Assembly: GCF_036492835.1 (NCBI RefSeq) | Contig: NZ_AP025324.1 | Location: forward strand, 1-54,475 | Length of the DNA stretch: 54,475 bases | Direction of reading: 5' to 3' | Origin: Fulvitalea axinellae | GTDB taxonomy: Bacteria; Bacteroidota; Bacteroidia; Cytophagales; Cyclobacteriaceae | Part shown: piece after piece, positions 5,861-53,316 of the stretch | How positions within the stretch are numbered: position 1 is the first letter of the stretch | Layout of the letters: each line of letters begins with the position of its first letter | Made by a program: the position numbers and the translations under genes | Notes under the pieces: model-generated | Seen by the model: the letters and a program-made list of their open reading frames with translations, nothing else | What the model was told of the DNA's origin: nothing | Database searches by the model: none

Positions 5861-5880
5861 TCTCAAAACTCACAAAGCTG

Positions 5881-5934
5881 TCGCCGGGCTCTAGCCCGGT
5901 GACCACCCCTACCGGCAGGTTCTTACCTGCCCCA
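5881..5934. repeat. Two-hairpin element, copy 1
   Basis: First hairpin CCGGGCTCTAGCCCGG, spacer TGACCACCCCTA, second hairpin GGCAGGTTCTTACCTGCC. A CATGCC palindrome follows 27 bp later. Confidence 0.8.
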
Positions 5935-6849: not shown

Positions 6850-6928
6850 AAAACCAACAAATTAACGTACAACAACACGGCCCAACACCGCAACAAATAC
6901 CATTTTTATGGAGGCCGTTTCAAGCTTC

Positions 6929-6957
6929 CAACTTAGCGTAGCGTTCTCATGAACACC
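6929..6957. repeat. AGCGTAGCG mini-repeat
   Basis: ACTTAGCGTAGCGTTCTCATGAACAC. Related sequences lie at 7178-7204 and in the two extra segments of the left long duplicated block (about 1512 and 1632). Confidence 0.55.
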
Positions 6958-6982
6958 TTTGGAAATAAAATAACGGCAGTGA

Positions 6983-7023
6983 ATAACCTGGTGACCAACC
7001 ATACCGGCAGGTTCCTATCCGCC
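6983..7023. repeat. Two-hairpin element, partial
   Basis: Only the spacer (CCTGGTGACCAACC) and a degenerate second hairpin GGCAGGTTCCTATCCGCC remain. Confidence 0.5.
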
Positions 7024-7080
7024 CACACGAGAATTTTCCATTCTAGCATTCCCGATACAGCTTCCATTCCCCTCACTAAT

Positions 7081-24249: not shown

Positions 24250-24336
24250 AACCAAAACAGTTACCTATCAATCATAACGTAATATACTATCCATAAACAA
24301 ACAACAACCCTCCGCCATCCCCTTGCCGTCCCCTGC

Positions 24337-24390
24337 CATCGGAAGGCTCCCGCCTTGTGACCAAACAAACTGGCAGGTTCCGACCTGCCA
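24337..24390. repeat. Two-hairpin element, copy 2
   Basis: First hairpin GGAAGGCTCCCGCCTTG (imperfect), spacer TGACCAAACAAACT, second hairpin GGCAGGTTCCGACCTGCC. Lies between umuD and umuC. Confidence 0.75.
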
Positions 24391-24418
24391 CTGCGCATGT
24401 CCACCCAAAACCGATCCC

Positions 24419-24459: not shown

Positions 24460-24506
24460 ACCCAGATATTGATTGTCATTCCAACCAGCGTTCCCCAAAA
24501 CTAACT

Positions 24507-24578
24507 TCAGGCCTTTATTTTTCTTCCATAACCGCAATGCTTTTGGATGGAAGAAAAATTTGTAGCCGTATTTAAAAG
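24507..24578. repeat. 72-bp hairpin repeat, copy 2
   Basis: Same orientation and nearly identical to 7081-7152. A frame of 134 codons crosses this gap on the minus strand but consists of repeat sequence. Confidence 0.75.
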
Positions 24579-24704
24579 ATTTTTTGGTTACTTTTTCATC
24601 TGAAAAAGTGACACCGGAGCTAGTTATAAGTAAGCTGTTTATGGTTTCGGGATATCGTCTTTTAAATGCCAATAATTATCGAGACGCATGGACAGAACCG
24701 ACAA

Positions 24705-25163
24705 TTATTTCCTCCTCTGAATAGTATAAGTAACAACCCCCCAAACCATAAAATCATCCCCTGCGCCAACCTCGATATCCGGAAACTCAGGATTCGCCGC
24801 CAACAACCGAACCTTGCCCCCCCGCCTGGAAAACCGCTTCAGCGTAAACTCCCCGTTCACGCAGCAGACAGCCAAATCGCCCTCGCGCGGCCTCATCGAC
24901 CGGTCCACTACCAAAACGTCCCCGTCATGGATATTCGCGCCCGACATCGACTCCCCGCGCACACGAGCGAAAAACGTCGCCTCCCTGTTGCCCACAAGCT
25001 CCCGGTTCAGGTCGATCACGCCTTCCAGATAATCTTCCGCCGGCGACGGAAACCCCGCCGTCACGGGAAACATCACCAACGGAACGCCCCCTAATCCCGC
25101 GTTCTCCGGCACATACAAAGCCAACGGTCCAGCCATAACGACAATATTTTTAGACAAATCCAT
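24705..25163 (-). CDS. umuD: UmuD-type S24 self-cleaving protein
   Basis: A 152-aa LexA-fold serine peptidase without a DNA-binding domain. RecA filaments trigger cleavage to UmuD', which joins UmuC. The scissile Ala36-Gly37 lies in FPVTAGFPSPAEDYLE, the nucleophile Ser72 in RGESMSGANIHDGD, and the general-base Lys109 in NGEFTLKRF. MDLSKNIVV (25163) is the chosen start; an ATG nine codons later would also give a normal length. At 25268-25283 TTTTCC-TTCC-GGAAAA is a candidate control site upstream. I see no E. coli-type LexA box. Confidence 0.93.
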   Translation of the reverse strand: MDLSKNIVVMAGPLALYVPENAGLGGVPLVMFPVTAGFPSPAEDYLEGVIDLNRELVGNREATFFARVRGESMSGANIHDGDVLVVDRSMRPREGDLAVCCVNGEFTLKRFSRRGGKVRLLAANPEFPDIEVGAGDDFMVWGVVTYTIQRRK

Positions 25164-25783
25164 TAACACGACCAAACCCCATTCGGTCCGGAACATAGCC
25201 ATAACCCGCTTTAACACAACCAAGAACCTCTCCCGATATTCCCCTTTCGCCAATAAATGTAGAATTATTTTCCTTCCGGAAAAATCAATTCGGCTACATA
25301 ATTTATACATGCTAAAAAACATAACACAAACCGTGTAGATAGTCTCTGCTTCCCTACGGATAATCAACGTACAAACGCGGGCATGCCCTGTCTCTCCACA
25401 TAAGTACATCCAGTAAAATAGGTTATGTTTCGGGAGAGGAATGTTTGAAGGGGTAACCTTTTGGTTTATTTGGTTTTATATTGTCTTCGAGCAGTCTCTT
25501 TACGCTTTACTATTTACTTTGTACTAACTTATATGGTAACACCTGACTGGCCGCAACCCAACAAAAACAGAAACCTCCATGGACCAAAACCATATCTTTC
25601 CTAAATTCGCCCAGCCCGGAGATTTTTAGAAAAAACGGACATCCCCACGCCGGAACGCCGATTTTTCCATTAAAACGACAACCGACACCATACGGAAAAA
25701 GCTTGTCCACCCTCTCCGGACAACCCAAAGTAAAGACCCAGTACTCTTTACGCTTTACTCTTTACTAAGTACTAAGTAAGCAA
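25164..25783. other. Spacer with paired AGTA-rich direct repeats before hsdM
   Basis: CTCTTTACGCTTTACT occurs at about 25496 and again at 25747, about 250 bp apart, each followed by a TTTACT/GTACTAA-rich stretch of heptad type. The second copy ends directly at the hsdM start. Between them I see no convincing gene. Confidence 0.5.
25368..25395. repeat. CATGCC palindrome, copy 10
   Basis: CGTACAAACGCGGGCATGCC-CTGTCTCT; left arm partly decayed. Confidence 0.7.
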
Positions 25784-27391
25784 ATGTCTGAAGACCAAAA
25801 GAACCAGCTCAAGACGAAGCTCTGGAAGATAGCCAATACCCTGCGCGGCAACATGAACGCCGACGAATTCCGCGACTACATCCTCGGATTCATATTCTAT
25901 AAATACCTCTCCGAAAAAATGGAGATCTACGCCGACCGCATTCTGCAGCCCGACGGCGTGAAATTCCTCGACATACCCGGAATGCCCGAGGCCGAAGACT
26001 ATTACGAAGCCATCAGGGAAGCCACCGTCGACAAGCTCGGATACTTCCTCCGACCCGAAGAGCTCTTCGCGCAGATAGCCGAACGCGGAAACGGCAAGGA
26101 CGAGGAACACCCCAACTTCATCCTCGACGACCTCGCCCGCATCCTCGACAACATACAGCGCTCCACCATGGGCACCGAGTCCGAAGACGATTTCGACCAC
26201 CTCTTCGAAGACATGGACCTCTCCAGCACCAAGCTCGGACGCACGCCCGACGACCGCAACAAGCTCATCGCCAAAGTGCTCTTCCACCTCGACCGCATCG
26301 ACTTCAAGCTCCACGACAGCGAGATCGACGTCCTCGGCGACGCCTACGAATACCTTATCGGGGAGTTCGCCAGCGGCGCCGGCAAAAAAGCGGGCGAATT
26401 TTATACCCCCCAAGAAGTCAGCACCGTGCTCGCCAAGCTCGTCACGACGGGCAAGACCCGCCTCCGTTCGGTATACGACCCCACCTGCGGCTCCGGATCC
26501 CTCCTCCTGCGCGTGTCCAAACAGCTTGAAAGGACCGATCCCGAAACCGGCGAGATAATCAGGAACGTAGGCTCCTTCACCGGCCAGGAACTCAACCGAA
26601 CCACCTACAACCTGGCGCGCATGAACATGATCCTGCACGACGTCCACTACCGCGACTTCGACATACGGCAGGAAGACACCCTCGAACGCCCGCAGCATAT
26701 CGACGAGCGCTTCGAGGCCATCGTGGCCAACCCGCCCTTCTCGGCCAACTGGTCCGCCAATCCCCTATTCGCCAACGATGACCGCTTCAGCGCCTACGGC
26801 AAGCTCGCTCCCAAATCCAAGGCCGACTTCGCCTTCGTGCAGCACATGATCCACCACCTCGACGAGGACGGAACCATGGCCATCGTACTCCCCCACGGCG
26901 TGCTCTTTCGCGGCGCGGCCGAAGGGCATATCCGCCGTTACCTCATCGAGGACCGCAATTACCTCGACGCCGTGATAGGACTGCCCGCGAACATTTTCTA
27001 CGGCACCTCCATCCCCACCTGCATACTCGTTTTCAAAAAATGCCGCGAGGCCGGCGACAACGTCATATTCATCGACGCCAGCCAACACTTCGAAAAGAAA
27101 AAGACGCAGAACTACCTCCGCGCCGAGGACATCCAACGCATGGTGGATACCTACGCTTCCCGCGCCCCGGAAGACAAATACAGCCACGCCGCCACGCTGG
27201 AGGAAATCGAAGAGAACGACTACAACCTCAACATTCCCCGCTACGTCGACACCTTCGAGGAAGAGGAACCCGTGGACCTGCAGGCCGTAACCGAACAGCT
27301 CCGCAACCTCGAAAACGACATGTCCCAAACCGACGGCCAAATCGACGCCTTCTGCCAAGAATTGGGAATCGAAAACCCCTTCCGATCATGA
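25784..27391 (+). CDS. hsdM: Type I restriction-modification methyltransferase subunit
   Basis: A 535-aa N6-adenine methyltransferase. The N-terminal HsdM helical domain starts KTKLWKIANTLRGNMNADEF and contains FIFYKYLSEKME. The SAM motif VYDPTCGSGSLLL has Asp232, and the catalytic NPPF motif (NPPFSANW) begins at Asn316. It works with HsdS and HsdR as the M2S methylase and the R2M2S nuclease. The layout of domains and the partner HsdR suggest the EcoR124 (type IC) group. The stop codon overlaps the hsdS ATG (ATGA), so the pair is translationally coupled. Confidence 0.96.
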   Translation: MSEDQKNQLKTKLWKIANTLRGNMNADEFRDYILGFIFYKYLSEKMEIYADRILQPDGVKFLDIPGMPEAEDYYEAIREATVDKLGYFLRPEELFAQIAERGNGKDEEHPNFILDDLARILDNIQRSTMGTESEDDFDHLFEDMDLSSTKLGRTPDDRNKLIAKVLFHLDRIDFKLHDSEIDVLGDAYEYLIGEFASGAGKKAGEFYTPQEVSTVLAKLVTTGKTRLRSVYDPTCGSGSLLLRVSKQLERTDPETGEIIRNVGSFTGQELNRTTYNLARMNMILHDVHYRDFDIRQEDTLERPQHIDERFEAIVANPPFSANWSANPLFANDDRFSAYGKLAPKSKADFAFVQHMIHHLDEDGTMAIVLPHGVLFRGAAEGHIRRYLIEDRNYLDAVIGLPANIFYGTSIPTCILVFKKCREAGDNVIFIDASQHFEKKKTQNYLRAEDIQRMVDTYASRAPEDKYSHAATLEEIEENDYNLNIPRYVDTFEEEEPVDLQAVTEQLRNLENDMSQTDGQIDAFCQELGIENPFRS

Positions 27392-28539
27392 GCAAGACAG
27401 AAAAGAGAAACGTGCCTGCGCTGAGGTTTCCGGAGTTTCAAGATGAGTGGGTTGAGAGAAGGTTAGAAGATTTATTTATTGAATTTAAAAGTGGCAAAAA
27501 TATAAAAGCCTCGAAAATCAACGATTCTGGTAATTACCCTGTGTACGGAGGAAATGGACTTAGAGGCTATACGGATATATTCTCTCATGATGGGGAATAT
27601 TTTTTAATAGGGCGACAAGGTGCACTTTGTGGAAATATTAATCGATTCTCGGGCAAGGCATTTGTCTCTGAACATGCGATAGCATGTAGATCAAATGATT
27701 TTTCCGACACTGAATGGTTAGCACAACGTTTGGATTATTTCAATCTTAATAGACTATCAGAGTCCTCTGCTCAACCAGGTTTATCCGTACAAAAATTACT
27801 TCGTTTTAAGCTTGTTGTTCCAACGAGATCCGAAGCCACCAAAATAGCCACCTTCCTAACCTCCGTCGACAAAAAAATCGCCCAAGTCCAAGAGAAAAAA
27901 CGCCTCAGCCAAGAATTCAAAAAAGGCATGATGCAGAAACTCTTCTCCCAACAAATCCGCTTCAAAGACGACCAAGGAAACGATTTCCCGGAGTGGGAGG
28001 AGAAAAGATTGGGGGATATCCTAATTGAATATAAGGAAAGGGTTGATGCGAATACCAATTTGCCAATTCTAACATCCTCCAGAAATGGCCTTTATCCACA
28101 AAAGGATTATTTTGCCAATAGAGAATTACAAAATGAGGGAGAATATGGAGTGGTCCCGAAAGGATTTTTTACTTATCGGCATATGAGTGATGATGCCACT
28201 TTTAAGTTTAACATTAATGAATATTGTGAAAGGGGTGCGATAAGCAAAGAATACCCTGTTTTCACAACGAAAGACTATAGCGCAAGATTCCTTTATGAAA
28301 TATTGAACAACGGCTCAGATTTCAAACGTTTTGCATTAACGCAAAAGCAAGGAGGGACAAGAACCCGTTTGTACTTCAAGAATTTGTGTAAAATGGTATT
28401 GAGTCTTCCAATATCTCAGGAAGCCACCAAAATAGCCACCTACCTCACGGCCCTCGACGACAAAATACAAAACCTCGAAAACCAGATCCGGCAGGCCAAA
28501 GCCTTCAAACAGGGCCTCCTCCAGCAAATGTTGGTATAA
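27388..28539 (+). CDS. hsdS: Type I restriction-modification specificity subunit
   Basis: A 383-aa specificity subunit with two target-recognition domains. TRD1 covers about residues 18-150 and TRD2 about 205-340. Each is followed by a matching helical spacer: EATKIATFLTSVDKKIAQ and EATKIATYLTALDDKIQN. The start ATG overlaps the hsdM stop by 4 bp, which fixes it. The two TRD-coding stretches (27,450-27,830 and 28,010-28,420) are clearly AT-richer than the hsdM-like GC-rich spacers, the footprint of TRD exchange by recombination. The DNA target cannot be read from the sequence. Confidence 0.95.
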   Translation: MSKTEKRNVPALRFPEFQDEWVERRLEDLFIEFKSGKNIKASKINDSGNYPVYGGNGLRGYTDIFSHDGEYFLIGRQGALCGNINRFSGKAFVSEHAIACRSNDFSDTEWLAQRLDYFNLNRLSESSAQPGLSVQKLLRFKLVVPTRSEATKIATFLTSVDKKIAQVQEKKRLSQEFKKGMMQKLFSQQIRFKDDQGNDFPEWEEKRLGDILIEYKERVDANTNLPILTSSRNGLYPQKDYFANRELQNEGEYGVVPKGFFTYRHMSDDATFKFNINEYCERGAISKEYPVFTTKDYSARFLYEILNNGSDFKRFALTQKQGGTRTRLYFKNLCKMVLSLPISQEATKIATYLTALDDKIQNLENQIRQAKAFKQGLLQQMLV

Positions 28540-28591
28540 ATTCGTTGAGAAAAATAGGCTTATATGACGGAATAATCTTTTTTCTATAAAA

Positions 28592-29329
28592 ATGCAGGAT
28601 ACAATTATTGCTATTACAAATGTTGTCTCGGGGATCATCATTATCGCCTTTTTTATCTTTCTTATGCGTTCTGTTTATTATTTCTCTTTTCTGAGACGAG
28701 AGAGAAGGCCAGTCAAAGAGGTACGTGTCAAAATAGGAGATAAGCTAAGTGAATTTAGAAGCTTAAGGAATACTCACCAATGTATTGATGAGTCTCTGGA
28801 AAAAAAATATCTAAAGACACTGATAGAATATCAAAAAATATCCGAAAACAATGTTACACCATTATACCGCTTTCAACCATATGCTGAAGCTATAAAAGTG
28901 TTTCTGCAAATGTTGGTCGGCTTCGCAATCGTATTTTTGATATTTGCCGAGCTTTTTTATAAGATGGGTGTCTTTGAATATACTTCACAGACATTTTATC
29001 TTTTCAATGAATCTTGGATTGTAAAATTAGTTACAGATAACTCGGAATTAGAGGATCTTATAAAGCAACCGATGTTAACCACGGTAGCGATTGGACTAGC
29101 CACGGCCACCGGCATCGAACTGGCATATATGCTCTTTACCCCCGGCCCGGATGAAGCCATACAACCCGTTACCATGGGCGTCGCCGCGTTGATTTTGGCC
29201 GAAATTGGCAAACCGGATTTCGAATTTACGATTGACCGCACCTTTTCGGTTGTCCTATTAGCCATGCTAATCCCCATTTTCTTGTGGGTAGAGCATTGGT
29301 TCAAGAATAAAGACGAGAAAAAAGAGTAG
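28592..29329 (+). CDS. Five-segment membrane protein embedded in the Type I locus
   Basis: A 245-aa protein with hydrophobic segments at about 8-28 (VVSGIIIIAFFIFLM), 107-125 (FLQMLVGFAIVFLIFAELF), 166-185, 191-207 and 218-235 (VVLLAMLIPIFLWV). A charged loop of about 80 residues follows the first segment. It shares no motif that I recognise. It sits between hsdS and an ATPase-HNH pair on the same strand, so it may be an effector or an anchor for either. Its stop codon TAG is supplied by the first bases of a palindromic repeat (GTAGAGACAGGG), so the original 3' end may have been longer. Confidence 0.75.
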   Translation: MQDTIIAITNVVSGIIIIAFFIFLMRSVYYFSFLRRERRPVKEVRVKIGDKLSEFRSLRNTHQCIDESLEKKYLKTLIEYQKISENNVTPLYRFQPYAEAIKVFLQMLVGFAIVFLIFAELFYKMGVFEYTSQTFYLFNESWIVKLVTDNSELEDLIKQPMLTTVAIGLATATGIELAYMLFTPGPDEAIQPVTMGVAALILAEIGKPDFEFTIDRTFSVVLLAMLIPIFLWVEHWFKNKDEKKE

Positions 29330-29352
29330 AGACAGGGCATGCCCTGTCTAAC
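29326..29352. repeat. CATGCC palindrome, copy 11 (supplies a stop codon)
   Basis: Perfect core GACAGGGCATGCCCTGTC. The TAG inside its leading GTAG (29327-29329) is the stop codon of the membrane-protein gene. Confidence 0.85.
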
Positions 29353-29391
29353 ACGCCCTGTATAATCATGACGATATCGGATGAATATCAT

Positions 29392-29421
29392 CGTAGGGGC
29401 CTCCTGCGTGTGCGCCCGTTC
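29392..29421. repeat. GTAGGGGC hairpin family, copy 1
   Basis: GTAGGGGCCTCCTGCGTGTG-CGCCCG; related hairpins lie at 31520-31551 and 38832-38862. Confidence 0.6.
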
Positions 29422-29526
29422 CTCTAGGTGGGGCCCCCGCCTTGCCTCCCAAAAACAATTTATCTATCTTCAACGCTTACGCAAATAAACCTTGCGAGTC
29501 ACCTTAAAACACAAGGCACCCAACCC

Positions 29527-30798
29527 ATGAAAATAAACCGCCTGTCCCTGCGGAACTTCAAAGGCTTCGACCAACGTTCCTTCGACTTCCATCCCAGCGT
29601 AAACGTCCTGATCGGAGACAACGGAACCGGTAAATCCTCCGTCCTCGACGCAGCCGCCTTCATGCTCGGCACATTCTTCATCGGCGTGGACGGCATTCCT
29701 ACATACGCCCTCAAAAACAGGGACAAAAGGCGCCTGATGGTAGACCGGAACAGCCTTGAGACGCAACTGCCGCTGAGCCTGGAGATAGAACACGAGATTG
29801 ACGGCGAAACCCTCGCCTGGCACCGCGACACCAACAGGGCTTCGGGAAATTCCACCACCTACGCCTCGGCCCGGGAGCTGGTTCGTAAGGCCCGGGAGCT
29901 TACGCAAGCCGTACGCGACGGCGACCGCGCTGACCTCCCCCTGATCGCATACTACGGCACCGAAAGGCTTTCCGAAGAGAAGAAAAGCAGAAAAAGCGGA
30001 AACAAAAAAAACGACGGTGGCTCTCGTCTCGAAGGCTATCGCGACGCCCTCGACCCACGCGCGATGAAAGAAAGGTTCATGGCCTGGTTCCGCGACGCAG
30101 AAACCGCCCGACTGCAGGATCTGCAGGACGAAACCCAAAGCCAGGACCTCTTGCTCTACCAAGCCTTCGTGGCTGTCTTGGGGGCTACGCTTCCCGATTG
30201 GGAAAATATCCATTACAATTTCAAAAGGAAGGATATCGTCGGAAAGGCTGGCGACGAGTGGAAAGAGTTCGAAAGCCTCAGCGCCGGATACAAAAGCATG
30301 GTCCGCCTCTGCGCCGACATCGCCTACAGGGCCATACGCCTCAATCCCCATCTCGGGGCCGAAGCGGTAACCGCAACCAAAGGAGTCGTCCTCGTCGACG
30401 AGATTGACATGCACCTGCATCCCAAATGGCAACGCGTGGTCGTCGATCGCCTCCAAACCGCCTTCCCGAACATACAGTTTCTGCTCACAACCCATTCGCC
30501 TTTCATAGTCCAGTCACTGAAAGCCGATGAGCTAATCAACCTCGACGACAACCGTATAGATGACGATCCCGACTCCCGGACGCTGGAGGACAACGCTCTT
30601 TTCATGGGGGTCGAAAGCGCCCACAGCGCCGAATTCGAGGAAAAACGACAGGTCAGTTATGATTTCTTCAAACTTCTCGAAGGGGAGGACAGTCCCGAAA
30701 ACAGGGCGCAGATAGACCTCCTGATAGAAAGGACCACGGACCCCGTATTCCGGGCCAAACTGGAAATCGAACGCCTCATCAAATTCGGAAAAGCATGA
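29527..30798 (+). CDS. PtuA-like (Septu) AAA/ABC-type ATPase
   Basis: A 423-aa ATPase of the SMC/OLD-like AAA class. Walker A GDNGTGKSS spans residues 30-38, the signature-like SLSAGYKSM starts at 250, Walker B is VVLVDEIDMHLHP with Asp291 and Glu292, and the H-loop LTTHSPFIVQS has His323. MKINRLSLRNFKGFDQ is the typical start, so I reject an upstream frame extension of 33 codons. It overlaps the HNH gene by 4 bp (ATGA). ATPase plus a small HNH protein is the Septu (PtuAB) antiphage layout; in that system the ATPase is thought to sense and gate the nuclease. The same pair also appears beside retrons, but no reverse transcriptase is here. Confidence 0.85.
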   Translation: MKINRLSLRNFKGFDQRSFDFHPSVNVLIGDNGTGKSSVLDAAAFMLGTFFIGVDGIPTYALKNRDKRRLMVDRNSLETQLPLSLEIEHEIDGETLAWHRDTNRASGNSTTYASARELVRKARELTQAVRDGDRADLPLIAYYGTERLSEEKKSRKSGNKKNDGGSRLEGYRDALDPRAMKERFMAWFRDAETARLQDLQDETQSQDLLLYQAFVAVLGATLPDWENIHYNFKRKDIVGKAGDEWKEFESLSAGYKSMVRLCADIAYRAIRLNPHLGAEAVTATKGVVLVDEIDMHLHPKWQRVVVDRLQTAFPNIQFLLTTHSPFIVQSLKADELINLDDNRIDDDPDSRTLEDNALFMGVESAHSAEFEEKRQVSYDFFKLLEGEDSPENRAQIDLLIERTTDPVFRAKLEIERLIKFGKA

Positions 30799-31496
30799 GA
30801 CCGGTAAACAGGGGCCCACGCCCCCTCGACAACGAAGGAAACCCGAGGCAATTCGAAAAATACAAGCGCGCTTTCCGTTATCTGATCGATCGCATTGGCA
30901 GCTATTGTTCCTATTGCGAAAGACGCCTTGCCTCGAACTTGGCCGTGGAACACGTCCAGCCCAAAACGCCGGTGCCGGCTCTCGAACTCGAATGGGACAA
31001 CTTCTTGCTCGGATGCGTCAACTGCAATTCCACCAAAGGGGATACCGTACCCACCATGGCCAACTACCCTTGGCCCGACAGCGAAAACTCTTTTCGCTAT
31101 TACGACTGCGACGCCGAAGGACGAGTCATACCCAAAGAGGGCCTAAACCCCCAAGACAGGCTGAAAGCTGAAAAGATGATCAGGCTTACCGGGCTGGACA
31201 AGACACAACCGGAAGAAGGGACTTCCGATTGGGAAGAAGCCTCCGATCGTAGGCAGGAACAGCGTATTAAGTCCCTGATGGAGTCCGAAGAGAAACGGAT
31301 CGCTTATGAACAGATGCCCTCCGAAGTCCGTCCCCATTTTATTTCTTTTCTGGTCACTATCGTCGAAGCCGACGGCTTCTGGTCCGTCTGGATGCGCGCT
31401 TTCCAAGACTTTCCCGAAGTCCAACAAGCCCTAATCCAAGCCCTACCCGGTACCACCGCCCAACATTTCCAAACCGCGGACACCGATACCCCTTAA
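30795..31496 (+). CDS. PtuB-like (Septu) HNH nuclease
   Basis: A 233-aa HNH endonuclease. The zinc-supported HNH core is visible: SYCSYCERRLASNLAVEHVQ with Cys38, Cys41 and the catalytic-region His53, then FLLGCVNCNSTKGD with Cys74, Cys77 and Asn78. This arrangement matches the TIGR02646-type HNH proteins that accompany AAA ATPases. The C-terminal 100 residues are helical and acidic. It is translationally coupled to the ATPase and probably cleaves nucleic acid when the ATPase is triggered. Confidence 0.85.
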   Translation: MRPVNRGPRPLDNEGNPRQFEKYKRAFRYLIDRIGSYCSYCERRLASNLAVEHVQPKTPVPALELEWDNFLLGCVNCNSTKGDTVPTMANYPWPDSENSFRYYDCDAEGRVIPKEGLNPQDRLKAEKMIRLTGLDKTQPEEGTSDWEEASDRRQEQRIKSLMESEEKRIAYEQMPSEVRPHFISFLVTIVEADGFWSVWMRAFQDFPEVQQALIQALPGTTAQHFQTADTDTP

Positions 31497-31519
31497 AACA
31501 CCAGCCTCCCCAATAGTCA

Positions 31520-31551
31520 CGTAGGGGCGCACCTGCGCGCGCGCCCGTTCC
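31520..31551. repeat. GTAGGGGC hairpin family, copy 2
   Basis: CGTAGGGGCGCACCTGCGCG-CGCGCCCG; self-complementary GGGGCGC/GCGCCC. Confidence 0.65.
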
Positions 31552-31573
31552 CCAAAATAGCCTGAAAGGCTTA

Positions 31574-31610
31574 CATTCACCAGCCTGGGGCATCGCCCTA
31601 GGTCCACGTC
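31574..31610. repeat. CCTAGGGC hairpin family, copy 1
   Basis: CCTGGGGCATCGCCCTAGG hairpin with flanks ATTCACCAG and TCCACG; the partner is at 37845-37880. Confidence 0.65.
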
Positions 31611-31880
31611 CCATCCCCACAACACCTTTAAATCTATATTTTTTGATTTAAAAACACTTAATAATCAAATAAACAAAGACCTTAAAATACATTCCCCTTC
31701 ATTCTTTCCTATTTATATCATACCCCTTATCTTTAGGTCATATTTTTCGGTCGCGCTATTTACCATTTCGGCGCGTGACGATCTTACGGCGACAGGATAA
31801 CAGGGCTTAATCAGCCCGACACCCGCCCTTAGTTTTAGGGGCCTTGTGTTTTCATCCGTTATTTTCGGCGTTACTTACCG

Positions 31881-31934
31881 CCGTCGCCGGGTTCTTACCC
31901 GGTAACGGACATCACCTCCGGGTTCCTACCCGGA
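31881..31934. repeat. Two-hairpin element, copy 3
   Basis: GCCGGGTTCTTACCCGG, spacer TAACGGACATCACCT, then CCGGGTTCCTACCCGG. Confidence 0.8.
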
Positions 31935-32037
31935 CCGCGCCAAGGATATCGCCATTCGCCCGATTTTTAACCGGTGACCGATTTTTTCAGACCTCAAAAC
32001 CAAGGAAATGCAGACCTTGCCCCCGGATACGCCCGTC

Positions 32038-34944
32038 ATGACGGAAAACAAAAAATCAGGCTACCAATCCGAAGCCGTGCTCGAAAACAAGCTAATCCAA
32101 AAGCTTGTCGAAATGGGCTACAAGCCCGCCAACCTCCCCGACGAACGCGCCCTGATCCAAAACCTGAGAACGCAACTCGAAGCCCACAACAAGACAAGCT
32201 TCTCCGACACCGAATTTGCGCAAATCCAGAACACCCTCGCCAAAGGCTCCTCCGTATTCGAAAAGTCGAAAGCCCTCCGCACCAAGCAGGAATACGTTCG
32301 CGACGACGGCACCACGGCCTACTACCATTTCCTCGATACCGACCATTGGTGCCGTAACCGCTTTCAGGTCGTCCAGCAGGTGACCATGGAAGGCAAATAC
32401 AAAAACCGCTACGACGTCACCCTGCTCATCAACGGGCTTCCCCTCGTCCAGATCGAACTCAAGCGCCGGGGCCTAGAGCTCAAGGAGGCTTTCAACCAGA
32501 CCGGCCGTTACCAAAAACACTCCTACGGAGCGGGAATGGGCCTGTTCCAGTATATCCAGATATTCGTCATCTCAAACGGCGTCAACACCAAGTACTACGC
32601 CAACAACCGCAAGCAGTCTTTCAAGCAGACTTTCTTCTGGTCCGACAAGGAAAACCAACCCAAAAAAGAACTTCTCGACGACTTCACTCCAGCCTTCCTC
32701 GAACCTTGCCACCTGGCCAAGATGGTATGCAAATACATCGTCCTCAACCAGACCGACAAGATTCTCATGGTGCTCCGCCCCTATCAATATTACGCGGTGG
32801 AGGCCATCGTCGACAAAGTCAAGAACAGTAATAAAAACGGATATATCTGGCACACCACCGGTTCGGGCAAGACCCTCACCTCCTTCAAGGCTAGCCAGAT
32901 AATCCGCGACATGCCCGAGGTCGACAAAGTGGTCTTCGTCGTCGACCGTCGCGACCTCGACTACCAGACCATCAGGGAGTTCGACGCCTTCTCCCCCGGT
33001 TGCGTAGAGGCCAATGAGCGCACAAGGGATCTCGTCGACAAATTCGGCGACGACACCAAACTCATCGTCACCACCCTGCAAAAGCTCAACAACGCCGTCA
33101 CCCGCCGATACAAAAACCGCATGGAGGCCAGGGCCTCCCAATCTGTCGTCTTCATCTTCGACGAATGCCACCGCTCCCAGTTCGGCGACACCCACAAGAC
33201 CATCTGCGAATTCTTCCCCAAACACCAGATGTTCGGTTTTACCGGTACGCCCATTTTCGCGGAAAATGCCGCCAAAAACAGGCTCGGCAAGCGTACAACC
33301 AAAGACCTCTTCGGCGAAGCCCTGCACAAATACGTCATCACCGATGCTATCCGCGACGAAAATGTCCTCCGCTTCTCCGTCGAATATATCGGACGATACC
33401 GCAAAAAATCCAGCGCCACGCTTCTCGATATCGAAGTAGAGGATATCGACCGCAAGGAGCTGATGGACTCGCCCAAGCGCCTCGAAAAAATCGTAGACTA
33501 CATCATCGCTAACCACCCCCGCAAAACATACGGCTCAAACGCCGTCGCAAGGCTCCAGCCTTGTGACTCTTCTGCCAGCAAGGCTCCAGCCTTGCCCCAA
33601 ACAAAAAACCAAAAACCGAATTTCACGGGCATGTTTTGCGTCAGCAACGTCGAGACGCTCATCAAATACTACGAATTCTTCCAAGAGAAAAAGAACCAAG
33701 GCCTGCACAAGCTCACCATAGGGACCATTTTCAGCTATCAGCCCAACGAGGCCGACCAAGACGCCGACGGATATTTCGACAATGAGGAAGTAACGCCGCA
33801 TTCCCGCGAAAAGCTCGACGAGTTCATAGGCCATTACAACAGCCGCTTCAACACCAAGTACAGCACCAAGGATCCGGAGACTTTCCAGAACTATTACAAA
33901 GACCTCTCGAAGCGCGTAAAAAACAGGGAAATAGACATCCTGCTGGTCGTTAACATGTTCCTGACCGGATTCGACTCCAAACCACTCAACACGCTCTACG
34001 TCGACAAAAACCTCAAACACCACGGCCTCATCCAAGCCTATTCCCGGACAAACCGGATCTTGAACGAGAAAAAATCGCAGGGCAACATCGTCGTATTCCG
34101 AAACCTCAAGGAAGCCACCGACAAGGCCATTACCCTCTTCAGCAACAAGGACGCCGTTGAAGAGATCCTCATGGAGCCCTTCGAAAACTATCTGGACTAT
34201 TTCGAAGAGGCCTACCGCAAGCTCCTGTCTATCGCACCCACCGTAGACGCCGTGGACCGGCTCCCTTCCGAAAAGGAGGAACTGGATTTCATCCAGGCTT
34301 TCCGCAAGCTCATGAGGCTCAAAAACACCATGCGGACCTTTGCCGAATTCGAATGGGAACAACTCGCCATGGACGAACAGACCTTCGAAGACTATAAGAG
34401 CAAGTACCTGGACCTCTACGACAAGGCCCGTCAGCCCAAAGAGAAAGTGTCCGTCCTTGATGACGTCGACTTCGAGCTCGAACTCATCCACCGAGATCAG
34501 ATCAACGTGGCTTACATACTCCGCCTCCTGGCTGAACTCAAGAACGAGCCCCAAGGCGAATCCGAAGAAAAGAAAAAAGCAATCCTCGACCTCATTGGAG
34601 GCGAAGCCACCCTCCGAAGCAAACGCGAGCTCATCGAGAAATTCATCGAAGAGAACCTCCCCCAAATCCGCGACACCGACACCATCCCCGACGAGTTCGA
34701 CGTCTTCTGGGAAAAAGAGACCCAGGAAGCCCTCACCCGCATGATCGACGGAGAAGGCCTGTCACGCCCCAAAACCGTCCAGAAAATCAAAGAATACCTC
34801 CATACCCCAAAAACCATCCAGCAACACGAAGCCCTCGACATGCTACAGAAACAACCCTCCATCCTCCTCCGCAAAAAAATAGGCCAACAAATCATCAACG
34901 CCTTCAACACCTTCTTCGAAACCTTCATCCACAACACCCCCTAA
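32038..34944 (+). CDS. hsdR: Type I restriction endonuclease subunit
   Basis: A 968-aa motor-nuclease subunit that translocates and cuts unmethylated DNA. The PD-(D/E)xK nuclease shows Asp126 in YDVTLLING and Glu140/Lys142 in QIELKRRG. The helicase shows Walker A TGSGKT (Lys278), DECH at 375-378 and FGFTGTPIF. Start chosen as MTENKKSGYQSE, which matches relatives; an ATG 30 bp upstream is possible. Uniquely, residues about 502-520 (AVARLQPCDSSASKAPALPQ) are encoded by a two-hairpin repeat inserted in frame, just before the conserved NFTGMFCVSNVETLIKYYE. It is separated from hsdMS by three unrelated genes but lies in the same direction. Confidence 0.95.
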   Translation: MTENKKSGYQSEAVLENKLIQKLVEMGYKPANLPDERALIQNLRTQLEAHNKTSFSDTEFAQIQNTLAKGSSVFEKSKALRTKQEYVRDDGTTAYYHFLDTDHWCRNRFQVVQQVTMEGKYKNRYDVTLLINGLPLVQIELKRRGLELKEAFNQTGRYQKHSYGAGMGLFQYIQIFVISNGVNTKYYANNRKQSFKQTFFWSDKENQPKKELLDDFTPAFLEPCHLAKMVCKYIVLNQTDKILMVLRPYQYYAVEAIVDKVKNSNKNGYIWHTTGSGKTLTSFKASQIIRDMPEVDKVVFVVDRRDLDYQTIREFDAFSPGCVEANERTRDLVDKFGDDTKLIVTTLQKLNNAVTRRYKNRMEARASQSVVFIFDECHRSQFGDTHKTICEFFPKHQMFGFTGTPIFAENAAKNRLGKRTTKDLFGEALHKYVITDAIRDENVLRFSVEYIGRYRKKSSATLLDIEVEDIDRKELMDSPKRLEKIVDYIIANHPRKTYGSNAVARLQPCDSSASKAPALPQTKNQKPNFTGMFCVSNVETLIKYYEFFQEKKNQGLHKLTIGTIFSYQPNEADQDADGYFDNEEVTPHSREKLDEFIGHYNSRFNTKYSTKDPETFQNYYKDLSKRVKNREIDILLVVNMFLTGFDSKPLNTLYVDKNLKHHGLIQAYSRTNRILNEKKSQGNIVVFRNLKEATDKAITLFSNKDAVEEILMEPFENYLDYFEEAYRKLLSIAPTVDAVDRLPSEKEELDFIQAFRKLMRLKNTMRTFAEFEWEQLAMDEQTFEDYKSKYLDLYDKARQPKEKVSVLDDVDFELELIHRDQINVAYILRLLAELKNEPQGESEEKKKAILDLIGGEATLRSKRELIEKFIEENLPQIRDTDTIPDEFDVFWEKETQEALTRMIDGEGLSRPKTVQKIKEYLHTPKTIQQHEALDMLQKQPSILLRKKIGQQIINAFNTFFETFIHNTP
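33542..33597. repeat. Two-hairpin element, copy 4, in frame inside hsdR
   Basis: CAAGGCTCCAGCCTTG occurs at 33548-33563 and identically at 33579-33594, with a 15-nt spacer starting TGAC. This is the same architecture as the intergenic copies. The frame stays open through it. Confidence 0.85.
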
Positions 34945-34957
34945 AACCGTCCCGTCC

Positions 34958-34998
34958 CGTAGAGGCATGGCATGCCTTGTCTCACACGAGGATGGTCA
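34958..34998. repeat. CATGCC palindrome, copy 12
   Basis: CGTAGAGGCATGGCATGCCT-TGTCTCACACGAGGATGGTC, 14 bp after the hsdR stop. Confidence 0.8.
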
Positions 34999-35012
34999 GA
35001 CGCCAACAAACA

Positions 35013-35067
35013 CCGTCGCCGGGTTCCTACCCGGTGATCACCCAAACTGCAAGGTTCCGACCTTGCC
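35013..35067. repeat. Two-hairpin element, copy 5
   Basis: CCGGGTTCCTACCCGG, spacer TGATCACCCAAACTG, then CAAGGTTCCGACCTTG. This is the cleanest copy. Confidence 0.85.
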
Positions 35068-35120
35068 TTTTAAAATAGAAGATTTACACCTACCACAATC
35101 ACTCTTTTACCTTCAGTCTC

Positions 35121-37694
35121 ATGTCACAGTCAAGGACCCAAATATCACAGGAAGAATTTATACAAGAATTAAAAGGTGCAAAATCAGAGCAACGGGAGGC
35201 TAAGTTTTCAAGCAGAATATTTGATTTTGTATTTCCACTTGGATCAGTTTTTAGTGAAGAGCATGTTCAAAACAAACGATTAGAAAAAAGAATAGAAATA
35301 CCGATTTCATTCGAAAACTGCGAGTTTAAGAAAGAGTGGGATGTATCAAGAGTGAAGTTCGAAGAGGAAGTAAATATTACACACTCTGTATTTTGTAAGA
35401 CAGCTAACTTCTCCAAGACAACATTCGAGAAGAAAGCTGATTTTAACAATTCCGAGTTTCAAGGCGACACTTCCTTTCACGAAATCAAGGTTAAAAAAGA
35501 AGCTTCATTTGAGTCCGTAAAATTTGGGATAGAAGAAGAGAAAGAGCAAACCAAACTAATATTTGGAGATTCGATCATCCAAACAACCGTGTTACAAAAC
35601 ACTTCTTTTAAGAAGGCTGAATTTTATTCAATGTCAAATTTTGAAGGAGTCTGTTTTATAGGTAACACTAGCTTCGAAAACAGTGAATTCTATAATCAGG
35701 TAATATTTGATCAAAGTATGTTCTCAAAAGATAAGGAGAACAGTCAAAACTATTTGAAATTCGATAATGCTACATTTTTCAAGAATGTGAGTCTCAAAGG
35801 GCTTTCGTGCCATTTAGTGGCTTTTTTCACCAATACTGATATCCATGAAAAATTTGACTTATCTCCATTGATAAGAGAAAGTGATAATCCTGAACGTGAA
35901 GATGATTATGAAAAAGTTACAGAGTTTCATCAGAATATAATATTCAAACCGAAAGAAGTAAAGAAGCCTAAAAGCCTCTTAATAAAAGAAGTCTCATTTC
36001 ATGAAAAATTGGATCTGGATTTACCTGTCCCCACCATTAAACTGATTTCTTGCAACTTTGGTAGTCTGAGTGGTATAGCAAAAAGCATCATTCGGACCCC
36101 CCAATCATTTGAGGAATGTTTTTTCGATAAAGACATCGAAGTTAAAAACGTAGATATCACTGAGGGCATCCTTTTTGAAGATTGGATTTTTAAAAAGACA
36201 GTTAAGTTTCCTGATCTAAAATACGAGAAAGGAATATCGTTCTCCAACTGTGAATTCAATGAAAATGTCACGGTAGATCCTAAAACCGAAAAAACGGAGT
36301 TTCTGGGGAAATTCGAAATACTAAATTCCGAAATCGGTGGAAACTTGGCGCTCCAAGGTTCCACCTTCCACCAACCCGCCGACTTCTCCAACAGTAAATT
36401 CAAACAGAATGTAACCTTCTATCAAGAAAAAGATAAAGAACACGGTATTTCCGAATGCATAGTAACCTTTAATAAGAAGGTTGATTTCGAAAATACAACC
36501 TTCGAAGGAAAAGCCATTTTCTGGAAAACCGAATTCAATGAGACCAATTTCGAAAATACCAAATTTCAGAAATTAGCAGACTTCTGGAAAGCTATTTTCC
36601 ATTCAAAAATGGAATTCAATAAGACTGATTTCAAAGAAAAAATTGTCTTTTCCTTCACCGAATTCAAGCAAGATGTTTCTTTTCTATACTCCAAGATTGA
36701 AGACCGTTTAATCATGGAGGAAACAAAGTTCGGTGCCGGATTAGACTTCTCTAGAGCTTTAATACAGGGGGATATTTCCTTTTTCAATTTTGAACCAAAA
36801 TTTACTTCGAAATCAAAAATAGGGCCTCGGTATCAACGTGAAACCTATCGAATTATTAAAAATGAACTGATTACCCAGAATAATAAAATCGACGCCACCA
36901 AATTCCATAAACTGGAAATGGAGGCATATTCAAAAGAGTTGAAGCTTAAGCCCCCGATGGATTTTCAGAAGTATGGTAGAGATGCAATAGAGCGGGTTCA
37001 ACACTTATTAATACGGTTTAAACGTAAGTATACAATTGTTGCCATAGCATTATTTAATGTATCTATATTATTGTTCGCTTCATTTATTTACGCTCCATCA
37101 TACGTTGTATTTTTAGTCCCTCTTGGTGCTATATATCTTACGCTATTGATTTGGAGTTTATTTTATAGAAAATATTCAATAACGAACATGGCAGAAATAA
37201 CCTTCGGTTATTTTGTATTTAAGCTTAAGAACTTTCGATACAAATTTGGTGATCAATCTATAAATTCGTTAAATCGACTTTCCAATTTACACGGCTTATC
37301 TTGGGTAAGGGCTTTAGTTTTTACTGTATCCATTATTATAGGTCTTTTTTCGGGTCTACTTTACTTTGGATTGGAAATAAATGCAAAGAGTGAGCACCCT
37401 TGGTCATATAAGCCAGCCACTTCTTGGTCAAATTTTTCCTACGAGGCCACAAAAAACAGCATTAGTGACGCCATGCGCCCACTAGCCCAGTTCGCAATCC
37501 CAACTCACAGAGCCAAATTCCTTAAAGACGATATCGACGCCATAATCTATGAAGGACAAACACTTCCCACAGACGCAGATCGAGACAAAAACTACAACCA
37601 CTGGTTCTACATAATCGACTTCCTATCCAGAATCTTCATCGGATACGGCATCTACCAATTCATCGCGGCCTTCCGAAAATTCAACAAAGGATAG
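35121..37694 (+). CDS. Membrane-anchored pentapeptide-repeat protein (long form)
   Basis: An 857-aa protein. Residues about 60-590 hold many A(N/D)FxxxxF-type pentapeptide units (for example KTANFSKTTFEKKADFNNSE and ADFWKAIFHSKMEFNKTDF), which fold as a right-handed quadrilateral beta-helix. A YRIIKNELITQNNKID segment links to a membrane part with two helices at about 642-690 and one at 733-755, ending FYIIDFLSRIFIGYGIYQFI. The same C-terminal module ends the shorter paralogue at 41065. AT-rich codon use contrasts with hsdR. Pentapeptide helices can mimic DNA or bind proteins. Here the module is tied to the membrane next to nuclease genes, so a sensing or anchoring role in defence is my inference. 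Confidence 0.85.
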   Translation: MSQSRTQISQEEFIQELKGAKSEQREAKFSSRIFDFVFPLGSVFSEEHVQNKRLEKRIEIPISFENCEFKKEWDVSRVKFEEEVNITHSVFCKTANFSKTTFEKKADFNNSEFQGDTSFHEIKVKKEASFESVKFGIEEEKEQTKLIFGDSIIQTTVLQNTSFKKAEFYSMSNFEGVCFIGNTSFENSEFYNQVIFDQSMFSKDKENSQNYLKFDNATFFKNVSLKGLSCHLVAFFTNTDIHEKFDLSPLIRESDNPEREDDYEKVTEFHQNIIFKPKEVKKPKSLLIKEVSFHEKLDLDLPVPTIKLISCNFGSLSGIAKSIIRTPQSFEECFFDKDIEVKNVDITEGILFEDWIFKKTVKFPDLKYEKGISFSNCEFNENVTVDPKTEKTEFLGKFEILNSEIGGNLALQGSTFHQPADFSNSKFKQNVTFYQEKDKEHGISECIVTFNKKVDFENTTFEGKAIFWKTEFNETNFENTKFQKLADFWKAIFHSKMEFNKTDFKEKIVFSFTEFKQDVSFLYSKIEDRLIMEETKFGAGLDFSRALIQGDISFFNFEPKFTSKSKIGPRYQRETYRIIKNELITQNNKIDATKFHKLEMEAYSKELKLKPPMDFQKYGRDAIERVQHLLIRFKRKYTIVAIALFNVSILLFASFIYAPSYVVFLVPLGAIYLTLLIWSLFYRKYSITNMAEITFGYFVFKLKNFRYKFGDQSINSLNRLSNLHGLSWVRALVFTVSIIIGLFSGLLYFGLEINAKSEHPWSYKPATSWSNFSYEATKNSISDAMRPLAQFAIPTHRAKFLKDDIDAIIYEGQTLPTDADRDKNYNHWFYIIDFLSRIFIGYGIYQFIAAFRKFNKG

Positions 37695-37773: not shown

Positions 37774-37830
37774 GCCATCGCCTGGTTCCTACCCGGTGAC
37801 CACAAAACCTCCGGCTTCCTAGTCGGACGG
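37774..37830. repeat. Two-hairpin element, copy 6
   Basis: GCCTGGTTCCTACCCGG, spacer TGACCACAAAACCT, CCGGCTTCCTAGTCGG (partly decayed). Confidence 0.7.
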
Positions 37831-39204: not shown

Positions 39205-40893
39205 ATGGAAGCCAAAAGCACCATCAGAAAAATGCTAGCGGGCAACGAAATAAAAGTCCCCGATTACCAAAGAGCCTATTCTTGGGACACGCCTCAACCG
39301 GGAGTAAAGTCAAGGAAACGCACCCATACCGATGTTTTCCTCAAAGATCTTGAGGAACATTACAATACAGCCTCAGAGTCCCAAACAACCTACTATCTGG
39401 GACATTTCCTGTTTGAGAAAAATGGCGATACATTTTATATCATAGACGGCCAACAACGTCTAACCACGGTCACCATCTTTCTGTCAGCCTTGTTTGAAAG
39501 GCTAGATGAAATAAAATGTTTTTCGACCGAAAATTCGGAAGACTATATACTCCGAAAAGATACGATATGCTTTTCCACTGTTCAATATGACAATATTTTC
39601 TTCAAGGACTATGTTATTCATAAAAGTAGACTTGATACCGACGGCCTCGAGACCGAATCTGCCCGTAGAATAGCTCAAGCTTTCGATTATTTCAGGTCCG
39701 AGCTTAAAGATAAAAGCAAGGAACAATTAATCGGTCTTTTACGAATAGTTTCGGAAGCCACCTGCACTACCCACACTGTGGCTAACGAGACAGAAGCGAT
39801 ACAAATGTTCATATTCCAGAACAATCGTGGAAAACGCCCTTCAAACCTGGAAGTGATCAAAGCCCAATTTATGTACGCTGTACGCCTTCGTGCCAACGGT
39901 GACTCCGATGCGAAGATTCAAAATATCCGCCAACGTTTCGAAGATATCTACAAAGCCATTTCCCATATCGAAGGTTACATTAGCGAAGATGATGTCCTTC
40001 TTTATACATTCAGGGTATACGTGAATTCGTTATGGGAAGACAATCCCGTCGGAAAAGTCATGGCGGAGCTTAAAAAAGATTCCGCACTCATTTTTGTAGA
40101 GAACTTTACTCTGGCCCTACACCAATCCTTCGGAAGACTCAAAAATTTCTTTTCTGTGGAGGAGAAGAGGTCTATTGCTGCCCATTCGCTGATCACCTTG
40201 GGCAATTATGCTACAGCTATACCATTTGTTATAAAGGCGGGCTTGTTCAACTTGGCTCAAGATAAAAAAGATCAATTATACAAATCGCTTGAAGACCTAG
40301 CCTTGCGACATTCCATTATCGGAACCAGAGGAAAGATCACTCGACGAATTAATGATGAATTCCAAGGATTCTCAAACGAACACATTGACATTACCCCTAT
40401 TCTAGATCAAATAGAACGACTCAAGGTTTCAAAAGAATATTGGTTAAGCCATTGGAACAACACGGCGCTCGAAAACGCCCTTAAAGGGAACGTACATATT
40501 CCTGCTGCCAGATTTATTCTCTGGAAATATGAAAATCATCTGATCAGTCAAGGGAAAGGTTACGCCCCAAAACGTTTCGATGATATACAAAAGCCCGAAC
40601 TTGAGCATATAGCACCCAAAACAGAACCCAAAGAACCCAGGCATGGCTATGGGCGCTATACCGAAAGGTTTAAGAACGAATACCTGAATAATCTTGGAAA
40701 CTACCTGCTAGTTTCCAAATCCCATAATTGCCAAGTAGGTAATGTTCCCTTTTCGAAAAAACATGAGACGTACGTCCACCTCCGCCAACAACAAGAAATC
40801 CGGGACATGGTTCCCGATGCCAAACGGTGGTCCAAAAACGAAATAGGGCAACGTCAAAAGAAGTTATCTGACTTTGTTCTGCAGAATTTTTAA
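39205..40893 (+). CDS. DUF262-DUF1524 (GmrSD-like) restriction protein
   Basis: A 562-aa protein. The N-terminal DUF262 domain shows KVPDYQRAYSWD and the ParB-like nucleotide motif IDGQQRLTTV (Asp81). The C-terminal DUF1524 domain shows LEHIAPKTEP (His468) and NEYLNNLGNYLLVSKSHN followed by GNVPFSKK, the HNH-like nuclease half. GmrSD from phage-resistant E. coli cuts modified (for example glucosylated) DNA, and single-chain fusions like this are a common form. The conserved residues look intact. It lies between two pentapeptide-repeat membrane proteins and after the GIY-YIG gene, all in one direction. Confidence 0.9.
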   Translation: MEAKSTIRKMLAGNEIKVPDYQRAYSWDTPQPGVKSRKRTHTDVFLKDLEEHYNTASESQTTYYLGHFLFEKNGDTFYIIDGQQRLTTVTIFLSALFERLDEIKCFSTENSEDYILRKDTICFSTVQYDNIFFKDYVIHKSRLDTDGLETESARRIAQAFDYFRSELKDKSKEQLIGLLRIVSEATCTTHTVANETEAIQMFIFQNNRGKRPSNLEVIKAQFMYAVRLRANGDSDAKIQNIRQRFEDIYKAISHIEGYISEDDVLLYTFRVYVNSLWEDNPVGKVMAELKKDSALIFVENFTLALHQSFGRLKNFFSVEEKRSIAAHSLITLGNYATAIPFVIKAGLFNLAQDKKDQLYKSLEDLALRHSIIGTRGKITRRINDEFQGFSNEHIDITPILDQIERLKVSKEYWLSHWNNTALENALKGNVHIPAARFILWKYENHLISQGKGYAPKRFDDIQKPELEHIAPKTEPKEPRHGYGRYTERFKNEYLNNLGNYLLVSKSHNCQVGNVPFSKKHETYVHLRQQQEIRDMVPDAKRWSKNEIGQRQKKLSDFVLQNF

Positions 40894-52659: not shown

Positions 52660-53316
52660 GTTCGTCGTCAAGCCCGGAGCGGCAATCGCGCCGGCTCGCC
52701 TTCCCAGCCTCCTTTCCTAACGTCACTCCGGCAGGCAAGCCGCCCTACGGGTATCGCTCCACTGCGGTGGCCAATCCCAAAAAATACGCGTAGGCCATAT
52801 CAAGCGCCGCCCGCCTCAGCCCCGGAAAAACCGGGCCATCGCCGGGCTCCAGCCTGGTGATACACCCTACATCCAGGTCCCGACCTGGCCACCTCCGTTC
52901 CGCTCCAAGCCGTCACGCTTCCCGCTTTCCGGTCCCTCCTCCTCACGGCGCTTCCCCCTGTTCCGTCGGCCAGTCGGCATTGCGTTCCCTTGCCCTTCCG
53001 CTCCTGCTGTCGCTGCAGGCCGGTCACTCCATACCGCCCCGCCTCTGGCCCAGCCAGCGCCAGAGTTAGGCTCGCCTGCGTAGTCGGTCAGGCATCGGCG
53101 ACTTTAACAAAAAGCCTCCGGCAGGTAGGTCACCTCGTGTTTGTCCGTTCCTCCGCAATACTTCGGAAACGGACAAACAAGGCCGGCCACGCCCTGCGCA
53201 AGCTCCGGGCTCTTCGGCCGCCACCCTCCCTCCGCTCGCAGGCGGCTCGCGCGGCTGACGCCGCCAAGGGCCTTCGCAAAAGCGAAGCCCGTCCGCATCC
53301 CCGACCACCACCCCAA
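52660..53316. other. GC-rich structured region without a convincing gene
   Basis: About 650 bp, markedly GC-richer than the flanks. TTTGTCCGTT (near 53138) pairs with AACGGACAAA (near 53168), and CTTCGC/GCGAAG and GGGCC/GGCCC stems occur near 53275 and 53320. Frames of up to 189 codons are Arg/Pro/Ala-rich with no known motif and cross the repeats. It could encode a structured RNA or be decayed sequence. Confidence 0.4.
52838..52891. repeat. Two-hairpin element, copy 7
   Basis: GCCGGGCTCCAGCCTGG, spacer TGATACACCCTACAT, CCAGGTCCCGACCTGG. Confidence 0.75.

Follow-up and report, generated by a model that had tools for sequence, protein, structure and literature searches.

Repetitive extragenic palindromes (REPs) have been described inside genes of several species, many of them DNA repair or helicase genes, and over half of these occur as dimers or groups encoding 20–30 residues (PMC3733652; this and the other papers named here are cited from excerpts). 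In-frame REPs are also published within transposase genes, and the REP-associated tyrosine transposases (RAYTs) include a subclass 2.6 in Bacteroidetes with atypical flanking structures that lack GTAG (PMC6006769). How REPs spread is unsettled (PMC8266576, PMC3733652). The TnpA-REP and IS608 enzymes act strand-specifically on folded single strands, where stem mismatches matter (PMC8266576), IS608 acts on the template of the lagging strand (PMC6006769), and in Pseudomonas fluorescens SBW25 the REP arrays on the two sides of the chromosome have opposite orientations (PMC3116915). Here we analysed a 54,475-nucleotide stretch of Fulvitalea axinellae DNA (NZ_AP025324.1, positions 1 to 54,475; the window) in which hsdR, encoding the motor subunit of a type I restriction enzyme, contains a 57-bp element made of two hairpins.

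We think it probable that the two adjacent hairpins form a mobile element of REP type, non-autonomous and moved as a single strand by a RAYT, and that the hsdR copy arose by insertion. A preliminary description of the repeat had named Rickettsia as a known case of in-frame palindromic insertion; such insertions are not confined to that genus, given the REPs already published inside genes of several species (PMC3733652, PMC6006769). We found no report of this element in the literature on hsdR and in-frame palindromic insertions, on REPs and RAYTs in Bacteroidetes or on strand bias, as represented mostly by titles and the beginnings of abstracts.

A translated element within hsdR

The insertion and its host gene comprise the following features.

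32008..34944, plus strand: hsdR, type I restriction R subunit of EcoR124 type (Pfam, PDB 2w00, intact motifs)
33541..33597, plus strand: 57-bp two-hairpin element in hsdR (covariance model 72.6 bits; gap-free alignment of 58 copies; single-stranded DNA fold z -4.16)
33548..33563, plus strand: core palindrome of hairpin 1, CAAGGCTCCAGCCTTG, exact match
33579..33594, plus strand: core palindrome of hairpin 2, CAAGGCTCCAGCCTTG, exact match
33541..33621, plus strand: 81-bp (27-codon) segment absent from relatives (51 of 51 without it; left edge inferred)

The hsdR open reading frame (ORF) encodes 978 residues without interruption. As the preliminary description had stated, two exact copies of CAAGGCTCCAGCCTTG lie 31 bp apart from start to start and are translated in frame, with HsdR residues 512–531 reading AVARLQPCDSSASKAPALPQ. 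Allowing up to three mismatches, this 16-mer has seven matches in the window (both strands searched, each hsdR site counting once per strand), against a shuffled mean of 0.28; none of 100 shuffles reached seven. The same architecture recurs elsewhere in the window, for example in elements beginning at 24335, 35012, 5877 and 52835. The two 16-mers are thus confirmed as present, but they do not delimit the repeat unit: what is conserved is a 57-bp sequence.

Comparison with other HsdR proteins revealed the clean gap that had been predicted. Relatives were drawn from 58 other genomes (10 matched), with none of the same genus among these, and from GTDB contigs (48 loci). From 69 loci, 60 gave a blastp match, 55 had an ORF of more than 600 residues and 51 distinct proteins besides that of the window were aligned; all 51 lack the segment. 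Close homologues, the nearest of which are ~60–65% identical, were checked for unrelated sequence of the same length at this site, and none carried it. Following the residues KTY, the window HsdR has 29 residues where 49 of the 51 relatives have two and the other two have seven, and EcoR124I aligned across the site has 22 residues fewer. The missing segment amounts to 27 residues (81 bp), more than the roughly 20 first proposed, although the frame is kept as proposed. Its edges reflect the most parsimonious placement and may slide by a few codons, the left edge being taken from the alignment of KTYGSN with KTHNRD. The 81 bp consist of the 57-bp element followed on its 3' side by 24 nt of A/C-rich sequence. 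CAAAC abuts the element on both sides (33536–33540 and 33598–33602), possibly as a duplication or by chance.

The host protein has the nuclease, motor and C-terminal domains of an EcoR124-type HsdR with intact motifs. Pfam detects HSDR_N, SWI2_SNF2, a T1R_D3-like domain and EcoR124_C, the match to PDB 2w00 has an E value of 1.4e-175, and the gene is preceded by HsdM-like and HsdS-like ORFs. In the nuclease, Walker A, DECH, TGTP and motif VI stretches, the key residues are identical to those of three relatives set out beside the protein and sit in invariant columns of a 23-protein alignment, so the enzyme is plausibly intact.

The segment falls between the SWI2_SNF2 (259–483) and T1R_D3-like (538–699) matches, a position that would suit an adaptive insertion tuning the motor subunit and kept by selection. 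We consider such an origin very improbable: the segment is a generic repeat that encodes a different peptide in another gene, and none of the 51 relatives has an equivalent. Under the mobile-unit interpretation, the element would have landed in a loop ahead of the T1R_D3-like, second motor domain. Its tolerance would follow from a length divisible by three, from the openness of the frame in which it is read and from a loop whose length differs among relatives. The insertion most probably has no effect on restriction.

Architecture and edges of the 57-bp unit

Each unit runs from GCC through a first stem of 10 bp (foot GTCG/TGAC) and a 10-nt linker to a second stem of 7 bp. Among 58 gap-free copies, stem positions pair in 96.9% of 986 cells compared with 73.9% after shuffling, and at 14 of the 17 stem pairs both bases are altered in some copies (199 cells with such double changes versus 50.3 shuffled). 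All five structure measures on these copies beat 500 of 500 shuffles, with slid controls far lower. In the initial set of 27 copies, three measures did likewise, and 30 and 27 of 500 shuffles reached the remaining two. The copies were picked by pattern and model, which makes the sample lean towards structure. The cleanest evidence of covariation comes from changes at pairs 4–27 and 5–26, because their 5' side was not fixed by the first search pattern. When the hsdR copy is folded as single-stranded DNA, its model strand adopts these two hairpins and no others (z -4.16).

Stem 1 usually has a wobble at its foot. Pair 7–24 is G.U in 53 copies, U.G in 2, G-C in 2 and A-U in 1, a constancy that is partly built in because its T belonged to the first pattern. 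The U.G foot GTTTC/GGAAC was found by the model and not imposed by the pattern, and it recurs in a genome of another genus (G002). The foot is mostly GTCG or ATCG, paired with TGAC or TGAT.

This foot sets the family apart from tagged REPs. A GTAG or GTRG foot left unpaired on the 5' side of the hairpin is absent from the family, in which the foot pairs instead. An unpaired CGTC tag is likewise absent: C-GTC is present, but its GTC pairs with GAC, with compensatory changes at 4–27, 5–26 and 6–25. The family otherwise resembles CGTC-tagged REPs, among them Rickettsia RPE-4 and RPE-6, in its C-GTC 5' end, its occurrence in Bacteroidetes, its intragenic copies encoding 20–30 residues and its inverted pairs (PMC3733652), and differs further in that two hairpins in direct order make up one unit.

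Edges were measured on 38 non-redundant copies out of 57 of full length, after 19 were dropped for flanks resembling another copy. The left edge is sharp, at 2.35 bits in position 1, whereas the right is softer (0.87 bits at position 55, 0.31 and 0.36 at 56–57). Flanks carry at most 0.35 bits in the 30 columns on either side.

A dispersed family on the chromosome and small contigs

A pattern derived from the hsdR copy and two intergenic copies matches the genome at 28 places, 18 of them exactly and 10 with one mismatch, and the reversed pattern at none. Covariance models extended this set. The first, built on 27 copies, gives at least 73 genome matches at E<=1 and the second, built on the 58 gap-free copies, at least 76 at E<=0.01, with 67 in common; these counts are lower bounds, as 150 of 2875 and 150 of 1427 candidates were scored, respectively. 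The hsdR segment is thus a copy from a dispersed family, and it is carried in frame. Eight copies lie in the window, the one in hsdR and the following seven.

31880..31936, plus strand: element copy upstream of hsdR (first model 49.9 bits, second model 58.7 bits)
35012..35068, plus strand: element copy downstream of hsdR (69.2 bits)
24335..24391, plus strand: element copy (67.1 bits)
5877..5933, plus strand: element copy (72.0 bits)
52835..52891, plus strand: element copy (68.6 bits)
37774..37829, plus strand: weak or partial element copy (first model 25.7 bits, second 39.5 bits)
6914..7025, plus strand: weak element copy with a long internal insertion (first model 28.1 bits, E 7.3e-5; second 26.6 bits)

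The genome totals 7,394,227 bases in 15 contigs. The window, whose first base is also that of contig C11, has genes of the Rep3 and ParA types and is therefore probably a plasmid; the nearest plasmid records to its Rep3 protein are from Aureibacter and Persicobacter. Small contigs C8–C13, together ~378 kb if C11 ends with the window, hold 37 of the 73 first-model matches and the 4.87-Mb C1 holds 27, with no copy in 19 readable 20-kb samples of C1. Relative to crudely called ORFs, 54 of the 73 lie between genes, 17 inside (several doubtful) and 2 at edges. As short dispersed palindromes in many, mostly intergenic copies, the 57-bp family has the properties of REPs in the broad sense.

The abundance on six small contigs would also be expected if the copies were miniature inverted-repeat transposable element (MITE)-like units moved by a DDE transposase, or had spread by plasmid recombination, with no single-strand mechanism. 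HTH_38-domain genes carry or adjoin some copies, and 19 of the 57 full-length copies share similar flanks with another copy, so some have spread together with their surroundings. The remaining 38 have unrelated flanks, however, and lack the terminal inverted repeats and target-site duplication of a MITE: direct 5-mer repeats at the edges occur in 2 of 38 against 0.55 expected (reached in 23 of 200 shuffles), those of 6 or more in 0 of 38, and terminal inverted similarity is slight (mean identity 0.33). With the strand bias described below (36 of 38) also speaking against it, we judge this origin unlikely.

Orientation relative to the replication strand

In 20-kb samples of C1, GC skew stays above zero between 0.1 and 2.5 Mb and below zero between 2.74 and 4.66 Mb. 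Because dnaA does not lie at the skew switch, GC skew is the whole basis of the strand assignment. The model strand coincides with the negative-skew, C-rich strand in 68 of 73 first-model copies; among non-redundant copies of full length it does so in 36 of 38 (binomial p 5e-9, copies treated as independent). On C9–C13 all 33 copies point in one direction per contig, and on C1 the minus strand carries 17 of 20 copies in the positive-skew part and the plus strand 5 of 7 in the negative-skew part. Three of the five first-model exceptions are partners of inverted pairs ~80 bp apart.

Gene direction does not account for this bias. Measured against neighbouring genes with a crude caller, 20 first-model copies run in the same direction and 15 in the opposite one, 15 lie in convergent and 4 in divergent gaps, 17 inside ORFs and 2 at edges; copies inside ORFs are split 9 to 8 between same and opposite direction. 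These data bear on a further possibility, that the element is a structured RNA motif (a terminator, stabiliser or riboregulator) selected in transcripts, with the hsdR copy a by-product. The conserved G-U wobble and the covariation would fit an RNA, as would the excess of convergent over divergent gaps, although the latter trend is published for REPs too (PMC3733652). Orientation in unidirectional gaps is nevertheless independent of transcription (20 versus 15) and mostly follows the replication strand (36 of 38). An Rfam scan of window positions 24000–36000 gave four matches, all under their gathering scores and none on an element. An RNA-level function as the source of the family thus seems rather unlikely.

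The strand bias and the wobble fit the published strand-specific action of TnpA-REP and IS608 on folded single strands. With IS200/IS605 elements such as IS608, the family shares a hairpin near each end and would share a single-strand or lagging-strand logic and strand-specific recognition; it differs in that no insertion sequence with matching ends was found and in that the model strand here is the C-rich one. IS200/IS605 elements have miniature derivatives. Like the REP arrays of P. fluorescens SBW25 (PMC3116915), the copies are mostly oriented oppositely on opposite sides of the chromosome. REPINs, by comparison, are inverted REP doublets, whereas the two hairpins here stand in direct order. 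Some chromosomal copies do form inverted pairs ~80 bp apart that resemble REP dimers (L124, L125, L126 and L136).

A RAYT flanked by the element in another genus

A survey of the family Cyclobacteriaceae with the covariance model, scoring 28 candidates per genome, found matches in 4 of the 197 genomes sampled, our own included. A strict pattern without mismatches had found none in 290 other genomes of the order; it was too strict, and the covariance model later found three other genera. One of these is G002, whose locus L178 holds a transposase gene together with the element.

L178: RAYT in G002, a genome of another genus of the same family, 182 residues (NCBIfam NF047646, REP_Tyr_transpos, 92.9 bits, cut-off 80)
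L178, 1571–1627 and 2314–2370, RAYT strand: element copies
L178, 1501–1557, opposite strand: element copy

One copy lies 4 nt past the RAYT stop and another 133 nt before its start, with the third inverted beside the first; in the copy just after the RAYT gene, T stands opposite T at the wobble position. The protein appears close to subclass 2.6 of Bacteroidota: it carries NHVH, WQ and YIHRNP with a HuH-to-Y distance of 84, and subclass 2.6 is described with the motifs NH[LIV]H, WQ and YIH[QN]NP and a median distance of 82 (PMC6006769). The R in YIHRNP replaces the Q or N of that motif. A variant of the same foot occurs in the other two genera (G437 and G126), and G437 (L185, L187) has a hairpin 1 loop extended by some 25 nt.

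Likened by description and not letter by letter, the family matches the REP/RAYT systems of subclass 2.6 in having short dispersed hairpins, copies flanking a RAYT (in G002), stem irregularity, a mostly extragenic distribution and no GTAG (PMC6006769). It departs from them in its 57-bp double hairpin, the fixed 31-bp spacing of most copies and its wobble foot. We regard it as a variant of the REP kind, whose membership of a RAYT system is supported at one locus of another genus.

Copies in other coding sequences

hsdR is not the only conserved gene to carry the element in frame. A portal/Mu-F fusion gene (Pfam Portal_Mu and Phage_Mu_F), present on C1 and C2 in versions that are 96% identical, contains it between the two domains in a reading frame other than that of hsdR. 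A viral homologue with 50% identity lacks ~43 residues at the element site; 20 loci were tried in this comparison and two distinct proteins passed the filter of one open piece of at least 500 residues. Further ORFs span copies, but likely spurious frames among them led us to exclude these from the coding insertions. The family resembles the Rickettsia palindromic elements in placing a palindromic repeat in frame in conserved genes, a likeness of behaviour in a host of another phylum.

The length of 57 bp is divisible by three, but the element shows no striking adaptation to coding, since the 58 copies have on average 3.57 open frames each compared with 3.23 after letter shuffling. Frame +2 is open in 53 copies, -1 in 46, -3 in 43, +1 in 40, -2 in 18 and +3 in 7. 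Separately, the related small HTH_38 ORFs at L072, L073 and L134 carry the element at a near-identical place in an antisense frame, with diverged arms.

A model for spread

In the scheme we favour, a RAYT of the HuH tyrosine type near subclass 2.6 would recognise the folded strand of the element where it is exposed at replication forks and would paste copies there. The enzyme of G002 is the candidate for moving the element, and it may do so at forks. In-frame REPs are already known and unpaired GTAG and CGTC tags are absent here, and we therefore file the family as a variant within REPs. A bolder alternative, which we hold only tentatively, is a distinct REP class: a 57-bp double hairpin whose foot wobble would mark the strand for a subclass 2.6-like RAYT, lying mostly in one orientation relative to the fork and entering genes, phage structural proteins and HsdR as ready-made linkers.

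Several observations weigh against the scheme. The element accounts for 57 of the 81 bp in hsdR and leaves 24 nt over, neither an empty allele nor a transposition event was observed, and no target rule emerged past A- and C-rich flanks. In the hsdR copy, the two strands reach similar folding energies (-16.7 kcal/mol for the complementary and -16.2 kcal/mol for the model strand), though with different structures. Nine matches found with the second model only, placed by contig side and not by local skew, include two that fit the strand bias, six that do not (four of them inverted-pair partners) and one that is unplaceable, and in other genomes the bias has the same sign in only 9 of 14 matches. 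The RAYT link is one locus in one other genome. No G002-type RAYT was found in the own-genome loci examined around copies, and the search of the whole genome used PF01797, against which the G002 RAYT itself scores 22.7 bits, below the cut-off of 23. The sole Y1_Tnp gene found there belongs to another type, and the palindromes on its flanks are different ones.

The strand trace, in 36 of 38 non-redundant copies and independent of gene direction, fits single-strand, fork-coupled spread of REPs. Besides this, the family provides a unit of known extent, a candidate enzyme from another genus, and insertions within a plausibly intact restriction motor and a phage structural protein. With these in hand, both the mechanism of REP spread and the tolerance of translated repeats become testable.

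Further observations

The own-genome Y1_Tnp gene (L092 1409–2014, C1:3266358) has a Y---Q--HH motif like that of the published subclass 1.2. It is flanked by 60-nt inverted repeats with two palindromes each, whereas subclass 1.2 is described as generally without such structures. We considered this gene as a mobiliser of the element and rejected it, as its flanking repeats score at best 1.9 bits against the element model and the sequence GGGACGATNTCCC is in 1 of the 184 loci examined. Three other Bacteroidota contigs encode relatives of the Y1 protein (32–34% identity) no more than 5 kb from hsdR (L065 3975–4409, L038 261–701 and L042 3660–4100).

No element occurred in 150 kb drawn from three Aureibacter and Persicobacter plasmids. 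Several element copies on the small contigs are followed by a palindrome of a second family, of the GTAGAGACA-GGGCATGCCC-TGTCTC type, as at window positions 24430–24450 and 34957–34985. A UmuC/UmuD-like pair (IMS and Peptidase_S24; 22978–24255 and 24705–25409) flanks one element copy, and the window also holds a GmrSD-type gene (39205–40893).

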